From assembly GCA_017465605.1 (NCBI GenBank), contig JAFTVW010000042.1, forward strand, positions 1-60,528: a DNA stretch of 60,528 bases. Direction: 5' to 3'. Both the position numbers and the translations under genes were made by a program. Positions 14,057 through 43,492 of the stretch are shown here, one piece after another. The notes below the pieces were generated by a model. It searched no databases, was not told the origin of the DNA, and was given only the letters and a program-made list of their open reading frames with translations. The stretch is from Alistipes sp. GTDB lineage: Bacteria; Bacteroidota; Bacteroidia; Bacteroidales; Rikenellaceae. Within the stretch, counting starts at the first letter, position 1. Each line of letters opens with the position of its first letter.

Positions 14057-14178
14057 AAAAAGTGGATAGTTGAGATTGTTTTTAGGCTTGCGAAGGCATT
14101 GAAACCGCAGCATACTCAGCGTATGTGAGGATTTCAATGACAAGCGTAACGACAAAACAATCCAACTTGCCGCTTTTT
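14057..14178 (+). repeat. Covarying hairpin element, copy 1
   Basis: Full copy. The outer arms are AAAAAGTGG...GATTGTTTT and AAAACAATCC...CGCTTTTT, quite unlike other copies in sequence but fully paired. The middle stem is GCTTG/CAAGC. The core has the 6-bp tip stem GCATAC/GTATGT. It overlaps the last two bases of the pgi stop codon. Confidence 0.9.
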
Positions 14179-15508
14179 ATAGGCGGGCTTTAATAGCCTT
14201 CGACTCCTCCTCATACCCAGGCTTGTCAAGAAGCGCAAACATATTCTTCTTGTAAGCCTCTACTCCGGGCTGGTTGAAAGGATTAACACCCAAGATATAA
14301 CCACTAATACCGCACGCCTTCTCGAAGAAGTAGATAAGCGCACCGATAGAGGTCTCGTCTATTGTAGGAATCTCGATGCAGAGCTGAGGAACACCACCGT
14401 CGATGTGAGCCAAACGAACACCCAACTCGGCCATCTTGTTAATCTCCGAGATACGCTTGCCAGCCAAGAAATTCAAACCGTCGAGGTTCTCGCCATCGGT
14501 CTCAACCTTCACAGTGTGCTTTGCATTCTCTACCGAGATAATTGTCTCAAACAGAGTGCGCTCACCCTCCTGAATGTACTGACCCATAGAGTGAAGGTCG
14601 GCAGTGAGTGTAACGCTTGCAGGGAAAATACCCTTGCCCTCTTTACCTTCGCTCTCGCCATAAAGTTGCTTCCACCACTCGGCAACATACTGCAACTTAG
14701 GCTCATATGAACCCAAAATCTCAGTCTTCTTGCCTGCTTTGTAGAGCTCGTTACGCACGATAGCATATTGCGCTGCAAGGTTGTCCTCTACTGCTACATC
14801 AACACCTGTTGCGCGCTCCATAGCCTGCGCACCAGCCACCAACGCCTTGATATCGATACCAGCCACTGCCAAAGGCAACAAACCTACGGGAGTGAGAACC
14901 GAGAAACGGCCACCCACATTGTCGGGGATTACGAAAGTAGGATAACCCTCGTTTGTAGAGAGAGTCTTCAACGCACCGCGTGCAGCATCTGTAACAGCCA
15001 CGATGCGCTCCGAAGCACCTTGCTTACCATAACGCTTCTCAATCTCGGCCTTGATGATACGGAATGCGATAGCTGGCTCGGTTGTAGTACCCGACTTAGA
15101 GATTACGATAGCAGCAATCGAATAATCCTTCACCGCGTCTAAAAGCTCGTAGGTATAATCCTCCGAAATATTCTGACCAGCAAATACTACTGTGGGGTTT
15201 TCGTGCTGACGCTTCAAGTACTCAAAAGAGTTGTTCATAGCCTCGATTACAGCCTTTGCTCCCAAGTATGAGCCACCGATACCGATGCAGATTACAACAT
15301 CGGCCTTAGCACGCAACGCAGCAGCCTGAGCCTCGATAGCAGCAATCTGCTCTGCGTCAATTGAAGAGGGTAGATTTACCCAACCCAAAAAGTCATTTCC
15401 AGCACCCTCGCCCGAGTGAAGCAAAGCATTGGCCTTAGCAGCCTCGGCCTTCATAGCCTCGGTGATTGTTACGCCTGATTTGGCGATGTCTAATTTCATC
15501 AAACTCAT
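14177..15508 (-). CDS. pgi: Glucose-6-phosphate isomerase
   Basis: A 443-residue cytoplasmic phosphoglucose isomerase interconverting glucose 6-phosphate and fructose 6-phosphate, of the shorter type also found in Firmicutes and Thermotoga. The SIS sugar-phosphate fold is shown by [13 protein letters not shown] (about residues 80-92) and [12 protein letters not shown]. The active-site Glu region follows in [13 protein letters not shown]. The start at 15508 (MSLMKLD) is chosen over an upstream ATG that adds basic, unlikely residues; 15499 is an alternative. A hairpin element overlaps the stop codon and may form the mRNA 3' end. Confidence 0.95.
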
Positions 15509-15601
15509 CGTTTTGTTAAATTTTAGTTTATAATTATTTCTCTTATATTCCGTTCTCATGCAAAATACTCCGCAAAATTAGTAAAATTTTCCGCAAAAAA
15601 G

Positions 15602-15634
15602 TTGGAAAAGTTACCCATCTTTTCACTACCTTTG
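15602..15634 (+). promoter_or_regulatory. Promoter of the rod-shape operon
   Basis: TACCTTTG at 15627-15634 matches the -7 consensus, with TTGG at 15602-15605 as a weak -33 element 21 bases upstream. It is about 100 bases before the mreB start. Confidence 0.65.
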
Positions 15635-15736
15635 TGCAGTCGGACAACAATCGACATTGTCCGCCACCTCGCAAAGCCGTCAAACGGGGGTCTTTTGCGA
15701 GGCTTAAAGAGTTGATTTATAATTAGAAACAAAAAT

Positions 15737-16762
15737 ATGGGCTTTTTTTCGTTAACACAAGAGTTGGCCATCGACCTCGGTACGGCCAATACTCTGATTA
15801 TCTACAACGGTAAGGTTGTGGTCGATGAGCCATCTATCGTAGCTCTCGATGTACACACCGGCAAAGTTATGGCCATAGGCCAGCAGGCTCGTCAGATGCA
15901 CGAGCGTACCAACCCCAACATCAAGACTATCCGCCCACTGAAAGATGGTGTTATTGCCGATTTCAGTGCTACCGAGCTTATGCTTCGCGGCTTGATTAAG
16001 AAGGTTCGCACTACAAGCAGTATGTTCGCACCATCGCTCTGTATGGTTATTTGTATCCCATCGGGCTCTACTAACGTCGAGATTCGCGCAGTGCGCGACT
16101 CAGCCGAGCACGCAGGAGGCCGCGATATCTATATGATTTTCGAGCCTATGGCAGCAGCTTTGGGCGCAGGACTCGATGTGGAGGCTCCCGAGGGTAATAT
16201 GGTTATCGACATCGGTGGCGGTACTTCGGAGATTGCTTGTATCTCGCTTGGCGGTATCGTATGCTCGGAGTCAATCAACGTTGCAGGTGATGTATTCACT
16301 GCCGACATTCAGAACTATGTACGCCAGCAGCACAATATCCGTATCGGTGAGCGCACAGCAGAGGATATCAAGTGTGCAATCGGTGCAGCCGTATCGGAGT
16401 TGGACGAGGAGCCCGAGGATTATGTAATCACAGGCCCTAATATGCTTACAGCCCTTCCACAGACCGTTACTCTCTCATACAACGAGATTGCATACGCTTT
16501 GGAGAAGTCGCTTGTTAAGTTGGACGCAGCCTTGATGAAGGTTTTGGAGGCTATGCCACCTGAGCTCTATGCCGACATCGTGAAGAACGGTATCTACTTG
16601 GCTGGTGGTGGAGCCTTGATTAAGGGTCTTGATAAGCGACTCTCGAACAAGTGCGGATTGCCCGTTCACATTGCCGAGGATCCGTTGCGTGCCATTGCTC
16701 GCGGTACAGGTATCGCAATGAAGAACCGCGACAAGTTCTCATTCTTGATGCGAGGTATCTAA
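15737..16762 (+). CDS. mreB: Rod-shape actin homologue MreB
   Basis: A 341-residue bacterial actin that polymerises on the inner membrane and directs the elongasome. Actin-fold ATP motifs are clear: AIDLGTANTL (phosphate 1, about residues 11-20), VIDIGGGTSEIA (phosphate 2, about 158-169) and YLAGGGALIKG (adenosine). Length is typical. It heads mreB-mreC-mreD-mrdA-rodA but is separated from mreC by a 13-bp perfect hairpin and two dispersed hairpin elements. MreB may therefore be expressed above the rest of the operon, a common need. Confidence 0.97.
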   Translation: MGFFSLTQELAIDLGTANTLIIYNGKVVVDEPSIVALDVHTGKVMAIGQQARQMHERTNPNIKTIRPLKDGVIADFSATELMLRGLIKKVRTTSSMFAPSLCMVICIPSGSTNVEIRAVRDSAEHAGGRDIYMIFEPMAAALGAGLDVEAPEGNMVIDIGGGTSEIACISLGGIVCSESINVAGDVFTADIQNYVRQQHNIRIGERTAEDIKCAIGAAVSELDEEPEDYVITGPNMLTALPQTVTLSYNEIAYALEKSLVKLDAALMKVLEAMPPELYADIVKNGIYLAGGGALIKGLDKRLSNKCGLPVHIAEDPLRAIARGTGIAMKNRDKFSFLMRGI

Positions 16763-16778
16763 TCAAAATTATACATCA

Positions 16779-16808
16779 GTTTAGGGAGCGGAAATCCGCT
16801 CCCTAAAC
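16779..16808 (+). terminator. Hairpin after mreB, possible partial terminator
   Basis: GTTTAGGGAGCGG and CCGCTCCCTAAAC form a perfect 13-bp stem with a 4-nt loop, 16 bases after the mreB stop. There is no T-run, only AATAGAAT, so it may stop transcription weakly or protect the mreB mRNA end while allowing read-through into mreC. Confidence 0.6.
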
Positions 16809-16882
16809 AATAGAATAGGGCTCATAACGTTTACTCTTTGGCCGCGCTCCGTTGCCCGCCACAAATGAGTATATCGGAGATG

Positions 16883-16972
16883 TTTGAAGTTCGAGAAACC
16901 GCAGTTTGCCCTGCGCAAATGAGGATTTCGAGAACGAGGCAGATGCCAAAAGAGCCTTGTTAGAGAATTTTT
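16883..16972 (+). repeat. Covarying hairpin element, copy 2 (left arm lost)
   Basis: Core and right arm are intact, while the left outer arm is replaced by unrelated sequence. The tip stem here is GTTTGC/GCAAAT, a third paired version that differs from GTTTAC/GTAAAT by a compensated A-T to G-C change. Confidence 0.88.
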
Positions 16973-17004
16973 ATATTGAACTTGGTTTATTACCCTTCAT
17001 CTTC

Positions 17005-17127
17005 AAAAATTATATAACAAGAGCTATTTTGAAGATGCACGAAGTTCGAGAATCCGCAGTTTACTATGCGTAAATGAGGATTTCGAGAACGAGGCAGATG
17101 CCGAAAGAGCCTTGTTAGAGAATTTTT
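17005..17127 (+). repeat. Covarying hairpin element, copy 3
   Basis: Full copy just before mreC. The outer arms AAAAATTATATAACAAG and CTTGTTAGAGAATTTTT pair, and the tip stem is GTTTAC/GTAAAT with loop TATGC. It ends 13 bases before the preferred mreC start. Confidence 0.92.
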
Positions 17128-17140
17128 GCCGAGTGTTTTT

Positions 17141-18055
17141 ATGTACAGACTTATAGAGTTTATACGCCGAATATATGTTGTGCTATTGTTCGTAATAATC
17201 GAAACAGTAGCACTCTATTGCTATTCCCACTCGACCCAATACACCGAAGCAAAGATTCTCTCTCACGCCCATAGCGTAACGGGAGCATTGCATAGCTCGG
17301 TATATGGCGTGATTCACTTCTTCTCGCTTCGCCGCGAGAATCAGAACCTCTCGGAACGTGTTGCGTGGCTCGAAAACCAACTTTCGCTCTATCGCGAGCG
17401 CAACGAGGAGTTGACTGCTACTGCAAGCGATTCACTGACTTTCTCACAATTGGATTCGCTCACCGCCCAGAATCTCACCAAATACCGATATATGACGGCC
17501 AGAGTGGTTGCCAACTCAACTAATCGCCTGCGCAACTACATCACGCTCAATCGTGGTCTGATGCACGGTGTAGTGCCACATATGGGAGTTATCACGCCCG
17601 ATGGTATGATGGTAGGCTACGTTGCAGCGTGCTCGGAGCGTTACTCGGTGGTGATTCCATTGCTTAATGCCGACTACCGCACAAGTGGAAAGATTGTGGA
17701 CGACGACCACATCGGCTCAATTCGCTGGAACGGCCATAGCCCATATAAGGTCGAGATGGAGGAGCTATCGAAAAATGCCAATATCGAGGTGGGTGACGAG
17801 GTGATAGGCTCTGGCGTATCGCACTACTTCCCATCTGATGTAAGAATCAAGATTGGTTACATCGACAGCTACACCCTAAACGAGAGTCAGACTGCCTACC
17901 ACGTAGTAATCCGACTCGCCAGCGACCTTTCCCGCCTTAGCAATGTCATACTTATAGAAAACGCCGATTTCAAGGAGGTGACCGACCTCGAAGAGTCGGT
18001 TAAGAACGGCAGCTATCTGCGCTCAATGAGCATCGGCGAAGGGGCCGAGAACTAA
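17141..18055 (+). CDS. mreC: Rod-shape determining protein MreC
   Basis: A 304-residue bitopic inner-membrane protein linking the MreB filament to periplasmic PBP2. One N-terminal membrane segment (about residues 8-28) precedes a coiled coil (about 65-90, SLRRENQNLSERVAWLENQL) and the beta-rich periplasmic domain with the GLMHGVVPHMGV pattern. The start at 17141 (MYRLIEFIRR) is preferred; an in-frame ATG at 17126 lies inside the right arm of the hairpin repeat. It is 18 bp before mreD. Confidence 0.94.
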   Translation: MYRLIEFIRRIYVVLLFVIIETVALYCYSHSTQYTEAKILSHAHSVTGALHSSVYGVIHFFSLRRENQNLSERVAWLENQLSLYRERNEELTATASDSLTFSQLDSLTAQNLTKYRYMTARVVANSTNRLRNYITLNRGLMHGVVPHMGVITPDGMMVGYVAACSERYSVVIPLLNADYRTSGKIVDDDHIGSIRWNGHSPYKVEMEELSKNANIEVGDEVIGSGVSHYFPSDVRIKIGYIDSYTLNESQTAYHVVIRLASDLSRLSNVILIENADFKEVTDLEESVKNGSYLRSMSIGEGAEN

Positions 18056-18073
18056 TTTTGATTCTGAGGATTT

Positions 18074-18589
18074 ATGCATAGATATTTAACATACGCAGGA
18101 GTTTTTGTTGGTTTGGTGTTGATACAGGTATTCCTTATCGACAACATCTCGCTCGGCATATACTTCCACCCCCTTATATATATCGGTTTTCTAATCATTC
18201 TGCCGCTCGATACCAAACCCATATGGGTATTGCTTCTATCGGCCTTGCTGGGTCTTGTAATCGACTCTATGACGGGTATGGGTGGATTGAATGTGATTGC
18301 CACTACTGCCACAGGATTTATGCGTGGCACGCTGCTCGGAATCACAAGCGGTCATAACACCTCAACCGACGACTCCATTCCATCGCTATATCGACTAACG
18401 GAGAAGAATTTGGCGTGGTTCATTGCACTCGTCATATTGCTTCATAGCTCTATATATTTTCTGCTCGAAGCTCTCTCGCTGCAACACATCTTCCATACGT
18501 TGCTAAGAGTTATCCTCAGTGGCATTGGAGCAGGAGCTTTTGTGTGGTTCTTCGTTAAGTTATTCATCGAAAAAATCTTCAACAAGTAA
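18074..18589 (+). CDS. mreD: Rod-shape determining protein MreD
   Basis: A 171-residue integral membrane protein with five or six hydrophobic segments. Its assignment rests on position between mreC and the PBP2 gene plus size and topology (LLSALLGLVIDSMTGMGGLN resembles the MreD middle region), since MreD is poorly conserved. It works in the elongasome with MreC. The stop is 2 bp before mrdA. Confidence 0.85.
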   Translation: MHRYLTYAGVFVGLVLIQVFLIDNISLGIYFHPLIYIGFLIILPLDTKPIWVLLLSALLGLVIDSMTGMGGLNVIATTATGFMRGTLLGITSGHNTSTDDSIPSLYRLTEKNLAWFIALVILLHSSIYFLLEALSLQHIFHTLLRVILSGIGAGAFVWFFVKLFIEKIFNK

Positions 18590-18591
18590 CA

Positions 18592-20427
18592 ATGGGAGCA
18601 AACGACGCATATATCCGACGCACAATACTTCGCCTTATTGTGCTGGGCATATTTGGCCTTATCGCGTGCCGTGTGGGTTATCTGCAACTCATCGACCGCC
18701 GCTACAAGAGCCTTGCCGAGGGTAACGTTCTGCGTTACGAGGTGCAGTATGCTCCACGAGGTGAGATTGTTGACCGCAATGGCGAGTTCTTGGTGCATAG
18801 TAAGGAGTGCTACGACTTGATGGTCACCTACCGCCATATCGGCAAGCAAGGATTCGACACTTTGAGTCTGTGTAATTTGGTTGGAATCAGCAAGGAGAAA
18901 CTTGTGCGTGTTTTACGAGATGCTCGCTCGGCACCTCGCAAGGCTACGCTCGTGGCCAACTATGTTCCCAAAGAGGTAAAGGTGCTTCTCGACGAGTACA
19001 ACTTCCCCGGATTCCACACCGTATATCGTACTATGCGCGAATATCCCCGCAAAATCGGAGGTAATCTGTTGGGATATGTGGGCGAAGTTAGCAAGAACGA
19101 CATCAACCGCAACCCCGACGAGTATCGTATGGGCGACTACATCGGCAAGAGTGGCGTGGAACGTGCCTACGAGAGCGACCTAAGAGGTAAAGATGGAGTG
19201 AAGATTCTTGAACGCGATGCTCACGGAGCCATCAAGAACTCATATATGGACGGAGCTTTCGACTCTCTGCCCATACCCGGCAAACGTCTCACCTGCACAA
19301 TTGATGCTCGTCTGCAAGCCTTCGCCGAGGAGCTTATGGCTGGCAAGGTGGGTGCTGTGGTGGCCATCGAGCCTAAGACGGGTGAAATTTTGGTTATGGC
19401 ATCATCTCCGAGTTACGACCCCGACGAATTGGTTGGTCGCAACAGAGGTAACAACTATATGAAGATGCTCGGCAACAAGCGTAAGCCTCTGTTCAACCGT
19501 GCCGTATCGGCTAAGTATCCTCCGGGCTCAACATTCAAACTTGTGCAAGGCCTTATCGGTTTGCAGGAGGGTGTACTAACGCCCGATAGAGCTTACCCCT
19601 GTCACGGAGGTTATCACGTTGGCCGTATCAGCCAAAAGTGCCACGCGCACTACTCTCCGCTCGATTTACGCAATGCGGTGGCTCACTCGTGCAACGCCTA
19701 CTTCTGTTATGTGTTCCGCGATATCATCGAAAACCGCAAATATGGTAGCGTGAAGGAGGGTTTGGACGTATGGGCTGAATATGTACGCAGTTTCGGATAT
19801 GGCCGTAAGCTCGACTCCGATTTTATCGACGAAGGCTCAGGCTACGTTCCAACTCGCAAGCTCTACGACCGCAACTACAATGGTTCGTGGAACGGCCTAA
19901 CGGTACTATCGCTCTCGATTGGACAGGGAGAGTTGGGTTGTACACCGTTGCAGATGGCCAATTTGGCAGCTACGGTTGCCAACCGAGGCTACTACTACAT
20001 TCCCCACATCGTGAAAGCCATCGAGGGCCGCGACTCTTTGGACAGACGCTTCTACGAGAAGCAATACACCAAAGTTGACCCCAAGCACTTTGAGCCTATT
20101 GCCGAGGGTATGTGGCGAGGAGTAAACATTCCGGGTGGTGGAACATCAAATCGCGCAATGATTGTGGGTCAAGATGTCTGCGGAAAAACTGGCACGGCTC
20201 AAAACCCGCACGGTCGCGACCACTCGACCTTCCTCTCATTTGCTCCGAAGGATAATCCTAAGATTGCCATCTCGGTATATGTGGAGTTTGGAGGTTTCGG
20301 TGCTACCATAGCACTTCCAATCGCCAGCCTTATCGAGGAGATGTACCTGACCGACACCATCAAACGACCTGAGTTGGTGGAATATGTAAAGAATATACCT
20401 TATAACCCACGACACTATGCCGAGTAG
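18592..20427 (+). CDS. mrdA: Penicillin-binding protein 2
   Basis: A 611-residue class B PBP, the elongasome transpeptidase that cross-links new peptidoglycan in the periplasm. It has an N-terminal membrane anchor (about residues 10-30), the dimerisation/pedestal domain with RGEIVDRNGE (about 55-64), and a transpeptidase domain. The three active-site motifs are STFK (Ser about 313), SCN (about 366) and KTGT (about 530). It overlaps rodA by 11 bases, consistent with coupled production of the PBP2-RodA pair. Confidence 0.96.
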   Translation: MGANDAYIRRTILRLIVLGIFGLIACRVGYLQLIDRRYKSLAEGNVLRYEVQYAPRGEIVDRNGEFLVHSKECYDLMVTYRHIGKQGFDTLSLCNLVGISKEKLVRVLRDARSAPRKATLVANYVPKEVKVLLDEYNFPGFHTVYRTMREYPRKIGGNLLGYVGEVSKNDINRNPDEYRMGDYIGKSGVERAYESDLRGKDGVKILERDAHGAIKNSYMDGAFDSLPIPGKRLTCTIDARLQAFAEELMAGKVGAVVAIEPKTGEILVMASSPSYDPDELVGRNRGNNYMKMLGNKRKPLFNRAVSAKYPPGSTFKLVQGLIGLQEGVLTPDRAYPCHGGYHVGRISQKCHAHYSPLDLRNAVAHSCNAYFCYVFRDIIENRKYGSVKEGLDVWAEYVRSFGYGRKLDSDFIDEGSGYVPTRKLYDRNYNGSWNGLTVLSLSIGQGELGCTPLQMANLAATVANRGYYYIPHIVKAIEGRDSLDRRFYEKQYTKVDPKHFEPIAEGMWRGVNIPGGGTSNRAMIVGQDVCGKTGTAQNPHGRDHSTFLSFAPKDNPKIAISVYVEFGGFGATIALPIASLIEEMYLTDTIKRPELVEYVKNIPYNPRHYAE

Positions 20428-21856: not shown

Positions 21857-21905
21857 CACAAACACATATTCCGAAAATCATATAATTAATAACCCAACTA
21901 TCCAA

Positions 21906-23570: not shown

Positions 23571-23573
23571 CAC

Positions 23574-23602: not shown

Positions 23603-23615
23603 CTCTTTAACCTCT

Positions 23616-23738
23616 GAAAATCGTATAGGCTGTGATATTTTGAAGCTGCTCGCAGATGGGAAAACCGCAGCATACCTGACGTATGTGAGGATTTTCTCAT
23701 CAAGGCAGATGCCAAAATAGCCAGCTTATACGGTTTTC
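23616..23738 (+). repeat. Covarying hairpin element, copy 4
   Basis: Full copy. The outer arms GAAAATCGTATAGGCTG and AGCTTATACGGTTTTC pair, using a different sequence from copies 3, 5, 6 and 9. The tip stem is GCATAC/GTATGT with loop CTGAC. It ends two bases before the stop codon of the FAH hydrolase gene, between convergent genes. Confidence 0.92.
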
Positions 23739-23740
23739 AC

Positions 23741-24364
23741 CTACATAACGTCGAAGTCGAGAAGAGTATAACCACCAATTCGAGCTTTAATATTATCCCC
23801 AGCCTTGACTGCCCCCACACCTACGGGAGTACCTGTATATATAAGGTCACCTATACGCAGAGTCATATATCGCGAAATATGGCTTATAATCTCATCTACG
23901 GTAAATAACATCTCGCAAGTGCGGCCACGCTGACGCACCTCACCATTTAGCTCCATCTCAAACTCCAAGTTCTGCACATCGCCACCCAACTCAGCCAACG
24001 ACACAAACTGATTCGACAGAGCTGCCGAGTGGTCAAAGCCTTTGCAAAGCTCCCACGGAAGCCCCTTCTGTATGGCCTCGCGCTGCAAGTCACGAGCCGT
24101 AAAATCGATTCCGAGCCCTACCTCCTTGTAGCAACGTGACGCAAACTTTTTGTCGATACACTTTGCCAAACGGGTGATTCGCACCACCAATTCACACTCA
24201 TAATGCACCTCACGCGAGAACGACGGAATGTAGAAAGGGTCGTTGTTCCTCAGCAGGGCAGTGTCGGGTTTTAGAAAAAACAGCGGCTCTTTGGGTATCT
24301 CCGCACCATCGTTGAGTTCCTTAGCGTGGTCGGCATAGTTGCGACCAATACAGATTATCTTCAT
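23741..24364 (-). CDS. Fumarylacetoacetate hydrolase (FAH) family protein
   Basis: A 207-residue FAH-fold enzyme of the short, single-domain type (FAHD1/YcgM-like). The metal-binding Glu pair is in HYECELVV (about residues 54-61) and the Asp in GIDFTARD (about 85-92); the GTPVGVG loop follows near the C-terminus. Members act as acylpyruvate hydrolases, oxaloacetate tautomerases or decarboxylases, so the substrate is uncertain. It starts 2 bp after the DUF3784 gene in the same direction. Confidence 0.85.
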   Translation of the reverse strand: MKIICIGRNYADHAKELNDGAEIPKEPLFFLKPDTALLRNNDPFYIPSFSREVHYECELVVRITRLAKCIDKKFASRCYKEVGLGIDFTARDLQREAIQKGLPWELCKGFDHSAALSNQFVSLAELGGDVQNLEFEMELNGEVRQRGRTCEMLFTVDEIISHISRYMTLRIGDLIYTGTPVGVGAVKAGDNIKARIGGYTLLDFDVM

Positions 24365-24669: not shown

Positions 24670-24705
24670 CTATTTTGAATTTATTCACTATTTAGCACTT
24701 TCTTC

Positions 24706-24828
24706 AAAAGTCGTATAACAAGAGCTATTTTGAAGCTGCTCGAAGGTCGAGAAACCGCAGTTTACTTGGCGTAAATGAGGATTTCAAGACCGAGGCAGAT
24801 GCCAAAAGAGCCTTGTTAGACGGCTTTT
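24706..24828 (+). repeat. Covarying hairpin element, copy 5
   Basis: Full copy between lpxB and the DUF3784 gene (tandem minus-strand genes). The outer arms AAAAGTCGTATAACAAG and CTTGTTAGACGGCTTTT pair, the middle stem is CTGCTCG/CGAGGCAG, and the tip stem is GTTTAC/GTAAAT with loop TTGGC. It overlaps the lpxB stop codon by two bases. Confidence 0.93.
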
Positions 24829-25960
24829 ACTTTGAATTTTGAATTTCTTCGACTATCGCTTTGGCAAACCTATCGCTTGCTCCTGCCCCGCCGATAATTG
24901 CACGCAACTCGGCAAAGTCGGCAAGCATCTTCTCGCGTTTATCGCCACCAATCATTATCGAGCGAAGCTCCTTTTCGGCCTCGTCAACCGAAGGGTGATA
25001 AACCACCATCTCGCGTACCGCCTCGCGCTGCAAATTCAAATTCACAAGCGACACATAAGGGATTTTGAGCAGATATGGTTTCATCTTCTCGTAGAACCAC
25101 GGAATACCATAGACCACCAATTCGGGAATACCTATCAACGCCGTTTCGAGCGTTGCCGTTCCCGATGTCACCACCGCAACCTCCGATATTTGCAGCAACT
25201 CGTATGTCTTGTCGCAGACAAACTTTACGGGCATATCGGCAGTGAATGTTTCATACTGCTCACGCGCAATCCAATCCACACCCGCAACCACAAATTGGTG
25301 TTCTGGCATACGCTCGGCCAAGCGAGCCATAAATCGCAGATTGGCCTTAATCTCGCTCACTCTACTGCCTGCAAGCAGAGCCACGATAGGTCGCTCATCG
25401 AGACCATTCTCGCGGCGAAAATCGCTCTCGGCAGGGGCTTCGGCACATCGTTTGGTGATGGCGTCCATAATTGGATTACCTTCGAAGTGAGGCTCAATGC
25501 CCTTCGAGCGGAAATACTCCTTCTCAAATGGGAATATGATATAGAGTTTATCGACAAATCGCCTAAGGGCCTTCACTCTATGCTCCTTCCACGCCCACAC
25601 TTTCGGTGCAATATAATAGTGAACGGGAATACCCTTCGAGTGTGCAAACTCGGCAATCTTAATATTGAATCCCGGATAGTCAATCAGAATAACCACATCG
25701 GGCTGGAAGGCCAAAATATCTCTGCAACACTCGCCCATCTGCGAGAGAATGGTGCGGATATTGAGTGCCACCTGCACAAATCCAAAAAACGACATCTCAC
25801 GGTAGTGCTTCACAAGATTCTCGCGACCTCCCACCTCGGCCATCATATCACCTCCGCAAAAACGGAACTTGGCCTCAGGGTCACTTTTTCGGATACCTTT
25901 CATAAGGTTTGAACCGTGCAAATCACCCGACGGCTCACCAGCAATAATATAATATTTCAT
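24827..25960 (-). CDS. lpxB: Lipid-A-disaccharide synthase
   Basis: A 377-residue GT-B glycosyltransferase (GT19) joining UDP-2,3-diacylglucosamine and lipid X to form the lipid A disaccharide at the inner face of the cytoplasmic membrane. Diagnostic pieces are IAGEPSGDLHG (about residues 5-15), DYPGFNIKIA, YYIAPKVWAWKEHR and LLAGSRVSEI, then TSGTATLETAL near the C-terminus. The last residues, EIQNSK, are encoded by a TTCAAAA-type heptad repeat also found at the end of trmD. Confidence 0.96.
   Translation of the reverse strand: MKYYIIAGEPSGDLHGSNLMKGIRKSDPEAKFRFCGGDMMAEVGGRENLVKHYREMSFFGFVQVALNIRTILSQMGECCRDILAFQPDVVILIDYPGFNIKIAEFAHSKGIPVHYYIAPKVWAWKEHRVKALRRFVDKLYIIFPFEKEYFRSKGIEPHFEGNPIMDAITKRCAEAPAESDFRRENGLDERPIVALLAGSRVSEIKANLRFMARLAERMPEHQFVVAGVDWIAREQYETFTADMPVKFVCDKTYELLQISEVAVVTSGTATLETALIGIPELVVYGIPWFYEKMKPYLLKIPYVSLVNLNLQREAVREMVVYHPSVDEAEKELRSIMIGGDKREKMLADFAELRAIIGGAGASDRFAKAIVEEIQNSK
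24829..24848 (-). repeat. TTCAAAA-type repeat at the lpxB end
   Basis: A short run of the heptad TTCAAAA (minus strand) encodes the C-terminal EIQNSK of LpxB. The same unit occurs at 25972, 26518, 44312 and 52590. Confidence 0.7.
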
Positions 25961-36872: not shown

Positions 36873-36967
36873 CCACGAAAAACAGGTGTTAATCGGCTGC
36901 TGCAAGGCCATTTCCTCCGCAAAATCGGGGATAAAAACGGGTATAGAAACGTTTTTATTTGAAATAT

Positions 36968-36998
36968 TTTGCTAAATAGGAAAATTGTCTTACCTTTG
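36968..36998 (+). promoter_or_regulatory. Promoter of rpmH
   Basis: TTTG (36968-36971), 19 bases, then TACCTTTG (36991-36998) is a near-perfect Bacteroidota promoter. The leader to the rpmH ATG is about 70 nt. Confidence 0.9.
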
Positions 36999-37071
36999 CA
37001 CCTCGCAGAAGATTACGAACAGACGTAATTGATGTGAAATTAATTGACACAAACACAAAAACGATATCGTT

Positions 37072-37239
37072 ATGGCAATGAAAAGAACTTACCAGCCTTC
37101 TCGCCGCAAGAGAATCAACAAGCATGGATTCCGTCAGAGAATGGCTACTGCTAACGGCCGCAAGGTTTTGGCAGCACGTCGCGCAAAGGGACGTAAGAAG
37201 TTGACCGTATCTGATGAGTCAACATTCAAGTATGCTTAG
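37072..37239 (+). CDS. rpmH: 50S ribosomal protein L34
   Basis: A 55-residue, very basic protein beginning [20 protein letters not shown], with the universal L34 core [19 protein letters not shown]. It is a component of the large ribosomal subunit. The C-terminal ESTFKYA extends a little past the usual end. Translation may begin at 37072 or at the second ATG (37078), which gives the more typical MKRTYQP start. The gene stands alone between its own promoter and terminator, away from rnpA. Confidence 0.97.
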
Positions 37240-37257
37240 TTTTCCGACTTAATCGGA

Positions 37258-37296
37258 AAGACAAGAGGGAATCGGACGCGATTCCCTCTTGTCTTT
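37258..37296 (+). terminator. Terminator of rpmH
   Basis: AAGACAAGAGGGAATCG and CGATTCCCTCTTGTCTT form a 17-bp perfect stem with a very short loop, followed by T residues. It is a strong intrinsic terminator. Confidence 0.95.
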
Positions 37297-37353
37297 TATG
37301 CCGCCGACCCCTCCGCCCTCCACTCGCGGCATAATTTATGCTCCGAAGAGGGT

Positions 37354-38028
37354 ATGAAACGAATCATCACACCATTTATCGTGGCCATAGCGGTTGGGGC
37401 GATAGCTCTGATTGCCGTATATCTCGAAAGCCACATTCGACCACAAGGACAACGCAACGATTATCTGTGGTACGACACACTGCAAAAGCTAAACAACTTG
37501 GCACGAATCAAACATCGCCAAAGTCTGCGTTATGCCCAATACGCCGCCTATGCCGAGCAAGAGGGATTGCACAACGAAGCCACCCTACTGCGTGCCATCT
37601 CGCAGGCCGACGCCATACAATGTCAAAACTGCATAAAAGCAATCGAATCATTAGGAGGAGTGCATCACGTTCCAATAAGCGTTGATGCCAATATGCAGAC
37701 CACACGTCAACATCTTCAACTCATCTGCGATGAGAAGAGCCAATACCACTCCGAACATATACATCACATAATCTCGCAGACTCTAAACGAAGGGAATCGT
37801 TACATCGCCCGCATGCTAACGTGGTGCGACGCAAGCGACGTGGAGCAGATTCTTATCCTACGACACGCTTTGCAGCAAGCTCAAAACACCGAATCGAAGG
37901 CCGACACCCTGCGGCAATGCCAATACTCCGTATGTCCCGTATGTGGCAAGCTGAGCGACAAGGAGTTAAGCACCTTTCGTTGCGCCCATTGTATGACCTC
38001 GCACGAGGAGTTTTTGATATTTAAGTAA
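37354..38028 (+). CDS. Rubrerythrin-like membrane-anchored protein
   Basis: A 224-residue protein with an N-terminal membrane segment (about residues 5-24), two helical stretches resembling a ferritin-like bundle, and a C-terminal rubredoxin-type zinc/iron ribbon (CPVCGKL about 198-204 and CAHC about 212-215). The helix AYAEQEGLHNEATLLRAISQ looks like the rubrerythrin ExxA..EG pattern. The expected ExxH metal ligands of the next turn are replaced (ADAIQCQN), so the diiron site seems incomplete. Function is unknown. The signal anchor is unusual for the family, whose members are mostly soluble. Confidence 0.65.
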   Translation: MKRIITPFIVAIAVGAIALIAVYLESHIRPQGQRNDYLWYDTLQKLNNLARIKHRQSLRYAQYAAYAEQEGLHNEATLLRAISQADAIQCQNCIKAIESLGGVHHVPISVDANMQTTRQHLQLICDEKSQYHSEHIHHIISQTLNEGNRYIARMLTWCDASDVEQILILRHALQQAQNTESKADTLRQCQYSVCPVCGKLSDKELSTFRCAHCMTSHEEFLIFK

Positions 38029-38076
38029 GACAACACTCTCTCAAGCCAACCCTCACCCACTCAGGGCCACAAAAAA

Positions 38077-38108
38077 GTGGTTGTCCAACAAGTGCGTCGG
38101 ACAACCAC
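38077..38108 (+). terminator. Hairpin terminator, GTGGTTGTCC type
   Basis: A-run, GTGGTTGTCC, a 12-nt loop, GGACAACCAC and CTTTT: an intrinsic terminator on the + strand. Nearly the same sequence occurs at 43330-43361, and in both places a dispersed hairpin element begins about 10 bases later. Confidence 0.85.
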
Positions 38109-38118
38109 CTTTTCGTTA

Positions 38119-38238
38119 GAAGCTGTATAACAAGAGCTATTTTTAGGCTCTCGAAACTCGAAAAACCGCAGTTTACTGGGCGTAAATGAGGATTTTGAGA
38201 GTGAGAGAAACGACAAAAGAGCCTTGTTAGACGGCTTC
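38119..38238 (+). repeat. Covarying hairpin element, copy 6
   Basis: Full copy between convergent genes (rubrerythrin-like and rnpB). The outer arms GAAGCTGTATAACAAG and CTTGTTAGACGGCTTC pair, the middle stem is GCTCTC/GAGAGT, and the tip stem is GTTTAC/GTAAAT with loop TGGGC. It directly abuts the rnpB terminator. Confidence 0.93.
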
Positions 38239-38271
38239 AAAAAAGCCCGACTGCCATTAAGACAGTCGGGC
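38239..38271 (-). terminator. Terminator of rnpB
   Basis: On the minus strand GCCCGACTG, a short loop and CAGTCGGGC are followed by six Ts, immediately after the RNase P RNA 3' end. Confidence 0.93.
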
Positions 38272-38276
38272 ATACT

Positions 38277-38639
38277 TTTGCAAGCACTATAAGCCGAGTT
38301 CTGTACCCCCACAGGGGCCTCTATCATTTATCTACAACTACGGTCACCCGCAGCTTCTAGCAACCTACCCCCCGACATTGGGCGAGCAACCCTTAATTGT
38401 CGGTATATGCGGTCTTGCAACCCGCAAGGCGTACTGCCGAGTGACATTACTGCCCTCGCGGTGGGCTCTTACCCCACCTTTTCACCCTTACCTGCCAGCC
38501 AAAGCCGACATAGGCGGTTATTCTCTGTTACGCTACTACACCCTCACGGACATCGAGCCGTTAACTCGTGCGGTGCTCTATGTTGCTCGGACTTTCCTCT
38601 CCCTGACTCGCAGGCAGCGATAGAGCGCACTTGCAAATT
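38277..38639 (-). ncRNA. rnpB: RNase P RNA, bacterial class A
   Basis: The minus strand carries the conserved 5' block GAGGAAAGTCCGAGC (near 38594) and the 3' block ACAGAACTCGGCTTAT (near 38290), which mark RNase P RNA. The termini pair as P1: TTTGCAAGTGC at the 5' end with GTGCTTGCAAA at the 3' end, which fixes the length at about 363 nt. It is the catalytic RNA of tRNA 5' maturation. A canonical terminator follows. Confidence 0.96.
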
Positions 38640-38738
38640 TTTCGTCCACGATGCGGCTGAACACGTTCCTGATGGAATAGTCACAACCTGCATCTCATAC
38701 TATTTATTAGTAATCTCTAATAACAATTATCCACCTCT

Positions 38739-38932
38739 AAAATCGTATAATTTGAGCTATTTTACCCCACCACAAGGGTGGTGTTTCCTCCTCGCGGCTC
38801 GGCAAAGCGTCTAAACACTCTTTGCTCTCGCTCCGCAGCGTCGGTTGAGGCTGGCCGCAGTTCGAGAATCCGCAGTTTACTCAGTGTAAATGAGGAATTC
38901 GAGAACAAGCCAGATGCCAAAAGAGCCAAACC
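38739..38932 (+). repeat. Covarying hairpin element, copy 7, with inserted module
   Basis: The left arm AAAATCGTATAATTTGAGC is followed by an ~88-bp module (about 38764-38851) between CTATTTT and GAGGCTG, then by the core with tip stem GTTTAC/GTGTAAAT and loop TCAGT. The right arm stops after AAAAGAGCCAAA, so the outermost pairing is lost. The module begins ACCCCACCAC and holds CACCAC/GTGGTG and GCAAAG/CTTTGC stems. Confidence 0.88.
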
Positions 38933-38941
38933 CATCACCAC

Positions 38942-39062
38942 AAAATCGTATAATTTGAGCTATTTTGAGGCTGGTCGCAGATGGAGAAACCGCAGCATAC
39001 TCAAAGTATGTGAGGATTTCAACATCAAGCCAGACGCCAAAAGAGCCAAATTAGACGGTTTT
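38942..39062 (+). repeat. Covarying hairpin element, copy 8
   Basis: Full copy. The outer arms AAAATCGTATAATTTG and CAAATTAGACGGTTTT pair, the middle stem is GGCTGG/AAGCCAG, and the tip stem is GCATAC/GTATGT with loop TCAAA. It ends four bases before the recJ stop codon. Confidence 0.93.
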
Positions 39063-39066
39063 ACTA

Positions 39067-40824
39067 CTACACGGTTTTAATATCCTTAATACGGAGCTGA
39101 GTAGTCACTACCCCTCGGTAATGATTCTCAACAATCTGATAGCAAACATCTATCGGTCTTCCCGCACGAATCCACTCATAATGAGTAGGCTGCTGGAAGG
39201 CGATGGTCTGAATGGCGGTATTAGGTTTCTGACGCTGTACCAAATCCATTCTCAGATGCTCCATCTCCGCACCCACCAACTTAACTTCGCCGTGTGAACT
39301 TGCACCATAGGTCACAAACACAGGAGCCGTATTACCCGGTCCAAACGGCTGGAAGCTATTGAGTTGGCGATGGAACGCAGGCGTAATGTCGGAGAACAGC
39401 AACTCGCTATCTATATCAACCTGCGGCACCAAAATCTGTGGGTCTATATGCTCATCGACATAGTCGTTGAATCGCTTTGTGAAGGCCTCCACATTCTCAG
39501 GCTTCATAGTAAGACCCGCAGCGTACATATGGCCACCAAAGTTCTCCAACAGATCCGAGCAAGACTCCACAGCTTGATAGAGGTCGAATCCCGGAACCGA
39601 GCGTGCCGAACCCGTAACAAAACCGTTGCTCATCGTAAGCACCACCGTTGGACGATAGTAGGTCTCAATCAGGCGTGATGCCACAATACCCACGATACCC
39701 TTCATCCACTTGGGATTATAGATTACCGTGCTCTTCTGCTCCTTCATCTCAGGGTGAGACTCGATATAGTCGTGAGCCTCCTGCGTAACGCTACGGTCGA
39801 TGTTCTTACGATCCTGATTATAGGCATCAATCACATCACAGAACTCACGCGCCTGCTTCTCGTTACCCTCAACGAGCAACTCGACAGCCGCAAAACCTCC
39901 CGAGGGAGCTGCATTTTCATCATTCTCGTCCATACGCATACGCCCTGCGGCATTGATGCGTGGACCAATCTTAAATACAATGTCGTCGATGGTGATATTG
40001 TGACGCTCCAAGCCACAAATCTTGATTATTGACAACAATCCCGACGAAGGCATACGATTCAATCGCTCCAAACCATAATAGGCCAAGATACGATTCTCGC
40101 CCGTAAGCGGTACAATGTCGGACGCAATACTCACTACCAGCAAATCCAACAGATGCTCAATATCCCTGAACGGAATATTATGCTTCTGCGCATAAGCCTG
40201 AACGAGTTTGAAACCCACTCCGCAACCCGACAACTCATCGAATGGATAGTTGCAATCGCTGCGCTTGGGATCGAGAACTGCTACGGCCGAAGGAATCTCC
40301 TCTGCCGGAAGATGGTGGTCGCAGATAATACAATCTACGCCCTTCTCGCTCGCATAAACAACCTTTTCTACGGCCTTAATGCCGCAATCGAGGGCAATCA
40401 TCAACGTCACACCCTTTCGTGCCGCCGAGTCGATGCCCTTAACCGATATACCATAACCGTCGTTATAACGGTCGGGAATGTAGAAAACAAGGTTTTTGTG
40501 ACCTATCTGCCGCAAAAACTTATAAACCAAAGCTACGGCTGTTGTGCCGTCCACATCGTAGTCGCCATAAACCATTATCTTCTCGTTGTTGGCTACGGCA
40601 CGCTCGATGCGCTCGACTGCCTTATCCATATCCTTCATCAGGAATGGGTCGTGCAAGTCGGAGAGCTGCGGATTAAAAAATTTATTGGCCTTTTCTACGG
40701 TGTCTATGCCTCTCTGAACTAGTAGGTTCGTGAGAACGGGCGACATACGGAGGTGGTTCGACAATCGAACAACAGCCTCCTGCGCGCCTTGGGGTCTCAC
40801 TACCCAACGCTTCTGTATAGGCAT
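39067..40824 (-). CDS. recJ: Single-stranded-DNA-specific exonuclease RecJ
   Basis: A 585-residue DHH-family 5'-3' ssDNA exonuclease for recombination and mismatch repair. The DHH phosphoesterase motifs are GDYDVDGTTA (about residues 82-91), ALDCGIKA and IICDHHLP (about 166-173), followed by the DHHA1 domain with its glycine-rich motif NFGGHMYAAGLTM (about 430) and the C-terminal OB domain. It lies 14 bp after lipB in the same direction. Confidence 0.95.
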   Translation of the reverse strand: MPIQKRWVVRPQGAQEAVVRLSNHLRMSPVLTNLLVQRGIDTVEKANKFFNPQLSDLHDPFLMKDMDKAVERIERAVANNEKIMVYGDYDVDGTTAVALVYKFLRQIGHKNLVFYIPDRYNDGYGISVKGIDSAARKGVTLMIALDCGIKAVEKVVYASEKGVDCIICDHHLPAEEIPSAVAVLDPKRSDCNYPFDELSGCGVGFKLVQAYAQKHNIPFRDIEHLLDLLVVSIASDIVPLTGENRILAYYGLERLNRMPSSGLLSIIKICGLERHNITIDDIVFKIGPRINAAGRMRMDENDENAAPSGGFAAVELLVEGNEKQAREFCDVIDAYNQDRKNIDRSVTQEAHDYIESHPEMKEQKSTVIYNPKWMKGIVGIVASRLIETYYRPTVVLTMSNGFVTGSARSVPGFDLYQAVESCSDLLENFGGHMYAAGLTMKPENVEAFTKRFNDYVDEHIDPQILVPQVDIDSELLFSDITPAFHRQLNSFQPFGPGNTAPVFVTYGASSHGEVKLVGAEMEHLRMDLVQRQKPNTAIQTIAFQQPTHYEWIRAGRPIDVCYQIVENHYRGVVTTQLRIKDIKTV

Positions 40825-40838
40825 AACTTACAATTTTA

Positions 40839-41585
40839 TTATTTATATATTTTAACATTTAATCTCTCAGCTAAGTGTTTTACAATCTGCTCCTTAACCT
40901 CTTCAAGAGCAATTTCGCGGCCAACCTCGCGGCTAAGGCTCGTAACCCCCTTATCAACAAATCCACAGGGGTTGATATGCGAGAAATATCGCAAATCGGT
41001 GGTAACATTCATTGCAAAGCCGTGCATAGTAACATAACGCGAAGAGCGCACTCCTATTGCGCAAATCTTCCTTGCACGCACACTTTCGGGCTCAATCCAC
41101 ACACCCGAAGCACCCTCGATACGACCAGCTACAATGCTCCAATCGGCACATACGTCAATGATGGCTTGTTCCAACGAGTCGATATATTGGCGCAGGCCAA
41201 TACCCAACTTCTCCAAATCGAGGATTGGATAACCTACAATCTGGCCGGGCCCGTGATAGGTCACATCGCCACCACGCTCAATGCGATAAAATTCGGCACC
41301 TATCTGACGCAAGTACTCCTCAGAGACAAGCATATTCTCCGACTTACCGCTTTTACCCAAAGTATATACAGGATTGTGCTCAACCAAAAGCAATTCGCCA
41401 CCGCAATCGGCCCCGATGATTGAATCCCACTCTGGAATATTCATCGCCCGAGAATCGCTCAACGCCAAAGAGTCCGCCGCAGCACTCGATTTTGAATCAA
41501 GTACACGTCCAAATAGCAAACGCTGTAACTCCCAGCATTCACCATAGCCCATACGGCCCAAATCTCTGTACAATACCTCCACCAT
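40839..41585 (-). CDS. lipB: Octanoyltransferase LipB
   Basis: A 248-residue lipoyl(octanoyl) transferase moving octanoyl from ACP to lipoyl domains. Key motifs are RGGDVTYHGPGQ (about residues 88-99), the catalytic Lys in KICAIGVR, and the catalytic Cys in HINPCGFVD near the C-terminus. The start at 41585 (MVEVLYRDLG) fits the family; the frame is open to 41627. Between WELQRLLFG and LLLVEHNPVYTLG there are roughly 15-20 extra, Ser/Ala-rich residues. lipA is 86 bp upstream, so the two steps of lipoate synthesis are encoded together. Confidence 0.93.
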   Translation of the reverse strand: MVEVLYRDLGRMGYGECWELQRLLFGRVLDSKSSAAADSLALSDSRAMNIPEWDSIIGADCGGELLLVEHNPVYTLGKSGKSENMLVSEEYLRQIGAEFYRIERGGDVTYHGPGQIVGYPILDLEKLGIGLRQYIDSLEQAIIDVCADWSIVAGRIEGASGVWIEPESVRARKICAIGVRSSRYVTMHGFAMNVTTDLRYFSHINPCGFVDKGVTSLSREVGREIALEEVKEQIVKHLAERLNVKIYK

Positions 41586-41671
41586 CTCGCCTAAAAGTTC
41601 GCCACCTAATGCATAAGCCTCAGCCACGCACCCACCGCGTCCGACCTATCGGAGCAACGAGGAGTGGCAGC

Positions 41672-42571
41672 CTACGCTTTCTCGGCAGCAATTTTACTCT
41701 TGACGCTCTCTAATGCGGCATCAGCCAAATACGACGAGCGCACCATAGGCGCACTTGCACAATAGCTGAACCCCATCTCCAAGGCTTGGAGTCTGTACCA
41801 TTCAAATTTCTCAGGAGTGATATACGCCGCAACGGGATAATGCTCCAAAGAGGGTCGAAGGTACTGACCAAGCGTCACAATTTCGACACCCACCTCGCGT
41901 AGGTCTCGAAGAGTTTGTAAAACTTCATCATCGCTCTCGCCAAGTCCGACCATCAGTCCACTCTTCGAGACTGCACCCATCTGTGAGATAATCTCCAACG
42001 TACGGAGGCTGGTGCGATACTTCGCACGAACACGCACTTCGGGGGTGAGTCGCTCGACGGTTTCGATGTTATGCCCAATAATATCGGGCTTAGATGCGGC
42101 CACAATTTCAATTAAATCGGCCCTTGCATCCAAATCGGGAATAAGGAGCTCAATTGTTGCGTCGGGATTCTCTTTGCGGATAGCCTCTACCGTTGCGGCC
42201 CAATGCGCGGCACCGCCATCGGGTAGGTCATCACGCGTGACAGAAGTCACGACAACGTGTCGAAGTCCCATTAGCCTTACACTCTCCGCCACTTTTTCGG
42301 GCTCGGAGGCTACGGGAGCAAGGGGTTTGCCTGTTTTTGTCGCGCAGAACTTACACCCACGCGTACAAATATCACCCAAAATCATAAAGGTAGCCGTACG
42401 ACGCCGCCAGCACTCGGCCTTATTGGGGCATAGCCCACTGCTACAAATCGTATGCAGTGAGTGCTCTCTGACGATGCGTTCCACCTCGGCAGAACCTTCG
42501 TCACTTTGCAGACGAATTTTCAGCCATTCGGGTTTTTTCAGCACATTTACCTTGTCATAAAACTTCGGCAT
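41672..42571 (-). CDS. lipA: Lipoyl synthase LipA
   Basis: A 299-residue radical SAM enzyme inserting two sulfurs into protein-bound octanoate. Both clusters are visible: the auxiliary cluster motif CSSGLCPNKAEC (C-x4-C-x5-C, about residues 39-50) and the radical SAM CTRGCKFC (C-x3-C-x2-C, about 65-72). The family RSSYLADA sequence is near the C-terminus. A TATCTTTG box at 42601-42608 is a likely minus-strand -7 element. Confidence 0.96.
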   Translation of the reverse strand: MPKFYDKVNVLKKPEWLKIRLQSDEGSAEVERIVREHSLHTICSSGLCPNKAECWRRRTATFMILGDICTRGCKFCATKTGKPLAPVASEPEKVAESVRLMGLRHVVVTSVTRDDLPDGGAAHWAATVEAIRKENPDATIELLIPDLDARADLIEIVAASKPDIIGHNIETVERLTPEVRVRAKYRTSLRTLEIISQMGAVSKSGLMVGLGESDDEVLQTLRDLREVGVEIVTLGQYLRPSLEHYPVAAYITPEKFEWYRLQALEMGFSYCASAPMVRSSYLADAALESVKSKIAAEKA

Positions 42572-42672
42572 TTTTTAAGTTCATTATTTTCCAATTGATG
42601 CAAAGATATGAAAAAAAACAAAAATCACCTCATTTTCGGAATAAAAACGATAGGTAATGCCAAAAAAAAGAG

Positions 42673-42680
42673 TACTTTTG
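42673..42680 (+). promoter_or_regulatory. -7 promoter box of apt
   Basis: TACTTTTG matches TAnnTTTG and lies 67 bases before the apt start. A convincing -33 element is not visible. Confidence 0.5.
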
Positions 42681-42746
42681 TAGAGACTTATTCCGCATAG
42701 GCCACAATTAGGCCCTGCGAAGACCACTAACCAGAGATTAACAACA

Positions 42747-43307
42747 ATGAAAAACGCACTTAAATTTTACCCCGACTTCCCCAAAAAGGGCATCGTTTTC
42801 GTGGACATCATTCCCCTTTTGCAGGACAAAAAGATTTTCGCTCAACTCATTGATGAGATTAGCAATCGCCTGTCGGCTCCCAACATCGCAGCCCCCGAGG
42901 CACGAGGTTTTCTCTTCTCGGCTCCACTGATGCTCGCCAAGGAGGAGGTTCAATCCATCATTCCCATTCGCAAAAGTGGCAAACTGCCTTATAATGAGGG
43001 TGATTTATGCGACGTTGAGATTGAGAAAGAGTACGGCTCCGACCACCTTTTCTATCGCCTGAGCGACATCGCTGCGGCTAAGACCGTGGGTGATGAAATC
43101 CACATCTCGATACTCGATGATTTGCTTGCAACAGGAGGCACAGCCGAAGGTATTGCCCAATCGATGATGGAGCAGAAAATCATAAAGGAGGGCAAAGAGT
43201 ATAAAGTTGTAATCGATGAATTTATATTTTTGGTCGAGCTCGATTTCTTGAAGGGCGCAGAACGCTTGGAGAAGATTGCCCCCGTAAAGTCGATAATTCA
43301 CCTGTAA
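42747..43307 (+). CDS. apt: Adenine phosphoribosyltransferase
   Basis: A 186-residue type I phosphoribosyltransferase making AMP from adenine and PRPP in purine salvage. The N-terminal FPKKGIVFVDIIPLL (about residues 12-26) and the PRPP loop SILDDLLATGGTA (about 127-139) are diagnostic. APEARGFLFSAP is also conserved. It has its own -7 box and ends before a GTGGTTGTCC-type terminator. Confidence 0.94.
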   Translation: MKNALKFYPDFPKKGIVFVDIIPLLQDKKIFAQLIDEISNRLSAPNIAAPEARGFLFSAPLMLAKEEVQSIIPIRKSGKLPYNEGDLCDVEIEKEYGSDHLFYRLSDIAAAKTVGDEIHISILDDLLATGGTAEGIAQSMMEQKIIKEGKEYKVVIDEFIFLVELDFLKGAERLEKIAPVKSIIHL

Positions 43308-43329
43308 CAAAATATTGCAAAACAAAAAA

Positions 43330-43361
43330 GTGGTTGTCCAACAAGTTTGTCGGACAACCAC
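43330..43361 (+). terminator. Terminator of apt, GTGGTTGTCC type
   Basis: A-run, GTGGTTGTCC, loop, GGACAACCAC and TTCT. Near-identical to 38077-38108, including most of the loop, although the preceding genes are unrelated. Confidence 0.82.
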
Positions 43362-43370
43362 TTCTATCTC

Positions 43371-43492
43371 AGAAGTTGTATAACAAGAGCTATTTTTAGG
43401 CCCTCGAAGCCCGACAAACCGCAGCATACTCTGGGTATGTGAGGATTTTGAGGGCAAGAGAAACAACAAAAGAGCCTTGTTAGACAGCTTCT
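43371..43492 (+). repeat. Covarying hairpin element, copy 9
   Basis: Full copy between convergent genes. The outer arms AGAAGTTGTATAACAAG and CTTGTTAGACAGCTTCT pair, the middle stem is GCCCTC/GAGGGC, and the tip stem is GCATAC/GTATGT with loop TCTGG. The arms resemble copy 6 but the tip stem resembles copies 4 and 8, so the parts have mixed. Confidence 0.93.

Follow-up and report, generated by a model that had tools for sequence, protein, structure and literature searches.

What is the hairpin that recurs along one contig stretch of an Alistipes sp. genome, and how did its copies come to lie there? We analysed the whole 60,528-nt stretch, here called the window, together with its genome (G000; 2.3 Mb in 64 contigs). 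The original prediction had seen a dispersed hairpin family with covarying stems around an invariant core, and had taken it for the product of selection on RNA structure or of a protein that reads a DNA cruciform. We find tens of copies in the genome, insertion sites that are filled in some related genomes and empty in others, a top strand that has kept its folding, a right end that often touches an opposing gene's stop codon, and a placement mostly on the strand with negative GC skew. We consider it an even bet that the family is a non-autonomous mobile hairpin element, of the kind represented by the YPAL repeats of Yersinia and by miniature inverted-repeat transposable elements (MITEs).

The exact core, CCGCAG and GAGGAT separated by 16 nt, occurs eight times on the plus strand of the window (14105, 16899, 17054, 23665, 24755, 38166, 38990 and 43419), and a pattern search of the whole window found none on the minus strand. 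A covariance model, whose seed alignment includes two of the window copies, recovered all eight and a split ninth copy with E-values from 1e-14 to 5e-33. The nine related copies that had been predicted are therefore there, as eight exact cores and the split copy placed at 38739, all on the plus strand. Folding of the nine stretches gave an end-to-end hairpin of about 125 nt in seven; the other two are 16899, which has no matching left outer arm, and 38870, which is broken up by another sequence. The copy at 43419 folds end to end, though its predicted apex is unlike the conserved one. Across G000, the pattern with at most one mismatch gave 70 matches, a few of which are clearly no copies, and the reversed pattern gave none. 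A looser pattern, applied to part of the genome's stretches, gave 67 places, and the covariance model, with up to 150 candidates scored, about 96 copies. Contigs C17, C20, C34, C38, C40, C44, C51 and others start or end inside near-identical copies of types A and B, so the G000 assembly seems to have been broken by the repeat.

Read from left to right, an element consists of a terminator-like hairpin (often), a linker, the left outer arm, an unpaired base, further arms with mismatches, the segment AAACC-GSA-G, a tip stem closed by a 5-nt loop, the segment T-GA-GG-A-TTT, and the right arms with their T-rich end. The linker between the terminator-like hairpin and the left arm is, by eye, G-poor and about 10-20 nt long. 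Near-identical type A and type B copies bring the terminator-like hairpin along and have sharp left and right borders. Copies also form tandem units of about 120-125 bp, in which the inner units are without outer arms. To the left of three G000 copies (C1:12667, C43:13072 and C53:83970) stands a related hairpin that consists of part of the element's left half with another tip (CGnnGTCTTACGACnG and alike).

We filtered 191 distinct copies for pairing and limited their identity to 80%, which left 88; 55 of these, chosen from 70 of the 88 without a fixed rule, were aligned. Of the paired cells, 91.8% pair, compared with 68.8% in shuffles, a percentage that is biased upward because the filter had removed weakly outer-paired rows before counting. 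Both sides have changed in 32 of 38 pairs, and the covariation score of 0.608 exceeds that of shuffles (0.191) and that of slid controls (0.167 at most). The stems thus covary as predicted, in these pairing-filtered rows, and the single unpaired base of the left arm also holds its position: alignment column 21 is A, G or T without a partner in 53 of 55 copies. Two other predicted features need restating. In the core, GSA faces GA, and the G.A and A.G oppositions (G57.A79 and A59.G78) are indeed invariant in 55 of 55 copies, but one core pair covaries, from C-G to G-C in 8 of 55. The tip stem, instead of three paired versions, has two common ones (29 and 26 of 55 copies) along with rarer ones. 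Among the copies of one genome the apex is nearly invariant and the outer arms vary. Integron attC sites have conserved outer boxes and a variable apex, whereas this family has it the other way round.

The pairing-filtered alignment also suggests which strand folds, with 102 G.T against 24 A.C oppositions and a G.T excess in 20 of 24 informative columns. Because the filter scores G.U as a pair, we repeated the strand comparison without it, on 108 copies less than 80% identical. The top strand had lower RNA energy than its complement in 83 of 107 copies, and folded better in 77 of 108 when the core and 8 nt on either side were kept unpaired. The G.T excess and the unfiltered energies together identify the plus strand, as given, as the folded strand, and the invariant oppositions make it plausible, from sequence, that the hairpin is read as a folded single strand. 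A functional structured RNA, such as a 3' untranslated region hairpin, a terminator or a small RNA, whose pairing is under selection and whose copies spread because they are useful, would agree with the strong covariation, with the better-folding top strand and its G.T excess, and with two observations described below, the position behind stop codons near terminator-like hairpins and the match of a Xanthomonas small RNA family to proteobacterial relatives. We nevertheless judge it unlikely, for reasons that emerge from the sites, the strands and the copy numbers.

Two sites in the window show that copies are inserted, since related genomes have them both filled and empty. Copy 5 (apex 24755; 24704..24830, plus strand; model E 2e-32) lies between an lpxB-like gene (24827-25960, minus strand; Pfam LpxB) and the next gene. 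The lpxB-like gene is present in 57 of 61 genomes of the genus; a hairpin core follows it in three of the 30 loci examined (the window, G507 and G544), and in G523, G535 and G509 the two genes abut, leaving the site empty. The second site, the gap between the RNase P RNA gene (38274-38636, minus strand; Rfam) and a recJ-like gene (39067-40824, minus strand; Pfam), contains copies 7 and 8. It measures 13-41 bp between the anchors in seven of eight relatives and 426 bp in the window; in the eighth relative, G509, it is filled by another, different family member. Copy 8 (apex 38990; 38939..39065, plus strand; model E 3e-30), for which seven of the eight relatives are empty, ends on its right against the recJ-like stop codon, at core+77. 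The site at 43419 was rejected as a further empty-site case: seven relatives have no core behind the upstream gene, but their downstream gene differs.

The lpxB site is also informative about how paired changes arise. Between the G000 and G507 copies the outer arms are identical to the letter (positions 1-26 and 103-121), and 28 of 121 positions differ, all of them between 27 and 102. Such a blockwise inner difference at one site implies that some paired changes come as blocks, through conversion or re-insertion, and not singly under RNA selection, which argues against the structured RNA. The predicted selection on RNA structure or cruciform reader consequently holds in part: the covariation exceeds its controls, but this is a repeat that moves, as its filled and empty sites show, and some of its changes come in blocks. 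Being short and non-coding, with inverted ends and filled and empty sites, the family has the hallmarks of a MITE, and its size, inverted outer arms and intergenic spread would suit an ordinary one, with the outer arms serving as terminal inverted repeats for a DDE transposase that mobilises it. However, arms that vary within a genome around a constant apex are the opposite of what ends read by a transposase would show, a clear target duplication is not seen, and a replication-strand bias is present, so we hold a transposase-read MITE to be quite improbable.

Where the elements stand is most regular at their right end. We tested the 105 rightmost copies of four genomes against opposing frames of at least 150 codons with a stop within 400 nt. 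Eighty of them face such a frame, and in 50 of these 80 (50 of all 105) the stop codon lies 70-82 nt from the core, that is, at the right end; in four copies it lies inside the right arm, 60-61 nt from the core. Likewise, in three further genomes, 38 of 57 copies have an opposing stop at -20 to +60 nt relative to the end of the model. At the lpxB site of G507 and G544 the stop codon is provided by the element. The near stops are all TAA or TAG (59 in the four-genome test and 38 in the further genomes), but this absence of TGA means little, as TGA makes up about 6% of regional stops (69/1085). YPAL, too, reportedly inserts close behind stop codons. A structured RNA is again disfavoured here, because the folded strand is antisense to the gene that it abuts.

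As to the flanks, 32 of 72 single copies have a left 60 nt that folds at z<-2, and 6 of 72 have such a right 60 nt (59 copies with a neighbouring core match were excluded); once alike left flanks are collapsed, the numbers are 32 of 69 and 6 of 69. Insertion next to dyad symmetry is true of about half of the single copies. The right end is T-rich and the insertion place A-rich. In the clade, arrays of the heptamer (CAAAATT)n are found where genes end and along the borders of some elements (L276, L277 and window 24830-24850).

We assessed strand placement by local GC skew, over 10 kb on either side where available. In G000, 51 of 60 loci have the folded strand on the skew-negative strand, the one of lagging identity, as do 24 of 26 in G089 and 14 of 15 in G052 (89/101 together). 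Further model-found copies, in regions picked from the model-match listing and including two G095 copies of the first test, gave 12 of 15 in G508, 12 of 15 in G091 and 17 of 27 in G095 (41/57); many of the 16 exceptions have weak skew. Where the right-hand gene is known, it opposes the element and faces its right end at 45 of 51 loci in G000, 24 of 26 in G089 and 9 of 14 in G052, and the coding majority does not track the skew-negative placement. Of 68 right-end genes, 61 belong to the skew-positive strand, compared with 637 of 1120 for all open reading frames (ORFs); at convergent sites, where either gene is eligible, the number is 38 of 43. The strand bias exceeds the gene-orientation effect, which also counts against a structured RNA. 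Neighbouring loci on one contig are mostly co-oriented (27/32, 17/18 and 6/6). The leading-strand gene rpoB is on the plus strand of G089 C3, G508 C4 and G095 C4, and the elements listed on those contigs are on the minus strand, except for one weaker copy on G095 C4. The 16S rRNA, sought as a further strand check, was not found in G508, G089 or G095.

Searches for a gene that could move the elements bear on two further explanations. REP elements moved by a RAYT (Y1) transposase are likewise dispersed palindromic repeats (REP features: PMC3733652, in the text accessible), intergenic and clustered. The Y1 family PF01797, however, matched none of the eight copy-bearing genomes among 22 tested, its one match being in the copy-free G060. 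The GTAG and CGTC tags of REP elements stand at both ends in 0 of 131 copies and near either end in 16 and 13. With neither tags nor RAYT, an origin of this kind has next to no chance. A retroelement, in which a reverse transcriptase turns the folded RNA into DNA where an A-tract follows a stop codon, would account for the T-rich right end, the A-rich insertion place and the remnants that keep just the right part of an element (at least eight places, by eye), and the reverse transcriptase family RVT_1 is present in the copy-rich G507, G508 and G523. Yet RVT_1 had no match in seven copy-bearing genomes, some of them incomplete (G000, G089, G544, G509, G526, G535 and G052), and it also occurs in several zero-copy genomes. 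Retro-insertion with 5' truncation, suggested by the remnants, was rejected because partial covariance-model matches lose both arms alike, with no left/right asymmetry. We regard a retroelement as very unlikely. A linked gene was also considered and dropped: inspection by eye of a pair of inverted copies in L117, and of the ORFs surrounding copies at 11 loci, showed ordinary neighbours only.

The copy number is strikingly uneven among close relatives. In hand-picked genomes, again with up to 150 candidates scored, the covariance model found 96, 76, 52, 47, 46, 38 and 23 copies in seven members of the genus and none in seven others, all of which were already zero by pattern, or in three outgroups; two genomes from another genus of the family have 17 and 1. 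Dozens or none inside one genus is not what a structured RNA would lead one to expect. The strict pattern occurs in 15 of 101 genomes of the family and, among 394 genomes of the phylum, in the window's genome only; it undercounts, for it detects 4 copies in G095 and 2 in G091, against 52 and 47 by the model. Among the matches listed from a scan of public genomes, most are Rikenellaceae and other Bacteroidota metagenome-assembled genomes, and at least nine loci come from other phyla. These nine form the same kind of hairpin round the core and, outside the searched core, have RAGGC on the left in 5/9, RACGC on the right in 5/9 and both in 3/9, compared with 0.07 for each in random windows.

The Bacteroidota-built model finds copies in Escherichia coli between qseG and qseE (6e-9) and between pheM and pheS (4e-9), weaker ones in MG1655 (3e-6 and 1e-4), and a second, unselected copy in L081 (6e-9); E-values for loci of other phyla are partly circular, since the loci were reached through the core. 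It has no match in a 50-kb MG1655 stretch (L185). A relative of the hairpin is present in 5375 of 5426 E. coli genomes, at a median of 5 places, and copies there lie between same-direction genes in both orientations, a last point against the structured RNA. The qseG-qseE copy was rejected as a polymorphic site: the stretch with the repeat matched full-length and in one piece in 24 of 25 evenly sampled rows, so this copy looks fixed. A plasmid search with window copy 5 as query gave no match. A Yersinia phage of the Peduoviridae (OM046624; L188) has the repeat at 3001-3118, between the M and L genes, with a 93-nt hypothetical gene annotated inside it, and is a possible vehicle. In Escherichia phage 613R3 (ON470592; L189) the repeat lies beside ffh-rpsP-rimM-trmD-rplS genes, so that this record seems to include host DNA.

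Is the family one that has already been named? The original prediction knew of no match, and at the gathering score Rfam indeed has no family for the element, in the window and at 14 loci from several phyla. Below that score the claim has to be amended. RF02228 (sX9), the Xanthomonas small RNA, is the only named Rfam family that scores above chance, and it does so in proteobacterial relatives only. Its 76-nt model, which spans the tip and one arm of the hairpin, matches the other strand of a Lysobacterales locus (L128) end to end (40.5 bits, E 2e-6) and the other strand of an E. coli relative (L183) end to end with an internal gap (31.7 bits, E 3e-4). Both scores are below the gathering score of 44, window copy 5 is unmatched up to E 5, and sX9 is filed as a one-strand small RNA, not as half of a mobile palindrome. 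We conclude that sX9 is the nearest named family, tied to the window family by way of the proteobacterial relatives.

The closest parallel in behaviour comes from Yersinia; what follows is limited to the accessible portions of the papers cited. YPAL, or RU-2, is a palindromic, intergenic repeat of 168 bp with filled and empty sites, whose targets are at or next to dyad symmetry and which is reported to be co-expressed with upstream genes (PMC2229807). The window family shares the palindrome, the intergenic position, the filled and empty sites and the neighbouring dyad symmetry. It differs in that YPAL target duplications vary from 3 to 26 bp (PMC2229807) and none is clear here. By eye, the printed RU-2 sequence (PMC2759123) has TGAGGAT in common, but its CCGSAG tip partner was not seen. 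Functionally, YPAL is the best parallel. Two other Yersinia repeats, Kristensenii39 (142 bp) and Aldovae3 (154 bp), have five copies each in E. coli (PMC2847712), like the median of the hairpin relative; we can only guess, from copy number and not from sequence, that they are the same. BoxC of E. coli, another dispersed palindrome, was set aside as a triplex motif (PMC4666352). No description of the hairpin family in Bacteroidota was found in the open-licence literature, as far as its text was accessible.

How might a non-autonomous mobile hairpin move? Its mobile form may be a single strand, of DNA or, less likely, of RNA, that is folded as the hairpin and recognised by the G.A/A.G core. At the replication fork, where the lagging-strand template is exposed, the ends of this strand would anneal to that template and so bring the element into the new lagging strand; the spot would be A-rich, behind a stop codon and often beside a terminator-like hairpin. 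The scattered presence across phyla would reflect horizontal transfer. Several observations weigh against this reading. As many as 55 of the 105 rightmost copies have no abutting opposing stop. Neither Y1 transposase nor RVT_1 was found in G000, where other recombinases and DDE transposases were not searched for, and inspection by eye of the ORFs at 11 loci, where no family scan was made, brought out no linked mobility gene. The annealing step is one that we infer. A clear target-site duplication was not found, the sole candidate, at the lpxB site, sitting in a heptamer array, and none was seen by eye around type A copies. The strand bias is not significant in G095 (17/27, and 1/3 in the first test), and of three E. 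coli copies examined, which lie on the same replichore going by the map and the position of ffh, two point one way and one the other.

The remaining window copies are likewise all on the plus strand. Copy 1 (apex 14105; 14055..14180; model E 4e-30) folds, and its right end abuts the stop codon, at core+72, of a PGI family gene (Pfam; 14177-15559, minus strand). Copies 2 (apex 16899; 16847..16974; model E 1.5e-14), whose left outer arm is unmatched and which forms no end-to-end hairpin, and 3 (apex 17054; 17003..17129; model E 1.7e-28) adjoin one another, with copy 2 between mreB- and mreC-like genes (Pfam MreB and MreC). Copy 4 (apex 23665; 23614..23740; model E 1.9e-28), preceded by a remnant with just the right part of another copy, has its right end at the stop codon of 23741-24364 (minus strand), at core+76. 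Copy 6 (apex 38166; 38116..38241; model E 5e-33) lies beside the 3' end of the RNase P RNA gene, which is thus flanked by copies on both sides (38116-39065), those on its 5' side lying between it and recJ. Of the split copy 7, the left half starts near 38739 and the apex part covers 38845..38920 (model positions 27-101, E 1.3e-15). The other dispersed repeat that splits it, at about 38783-38846, has many copies in close relatives, above all in G507. Copy 9 (apex 43419; 43369..43494; model E 5e-30) belongs to the near-identical type A subfamily. The terminator-like hairpin at 43330..43361 (plus strand) recurs on the left side of several type A copies, though farther out the flanks of these copies differ, and a near-identical one lies to the left of copy 6 (38077..38108, plus strand).

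Our results have several implications for repeats of this kind. In the palindromic-repeat literature consulted, as far as its text was accessible, three features of the family have no counterpart: the conservation of one folded strand, whose internal loop is invariant, a replication-strand bias and a reach across phyla. More tentatively, the elements may be cross-phylum hairpin parasites that have no transposase of their own, are keyed to the G.A/A.G core and are inserted as a folded strand at replication forks behind stop codons, with sX9 as a half-copy. Covariation alone is no proof of an RNA gene, and the prevalence of sX9, which is among the 20 most prevalent bacterial small RNAs (PMC9029176, in the text accessible), may partly count copies of mobile hairpin repeats. 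The literature accessible to us names no mover for YPAL-like palindromic repeats. Because this repeat is tied to one folded strand and one replication strand, has filled and empty sites, and occurs in a clade whose genomes have tens of copies or none, its mover can be sought by comparing gene content.

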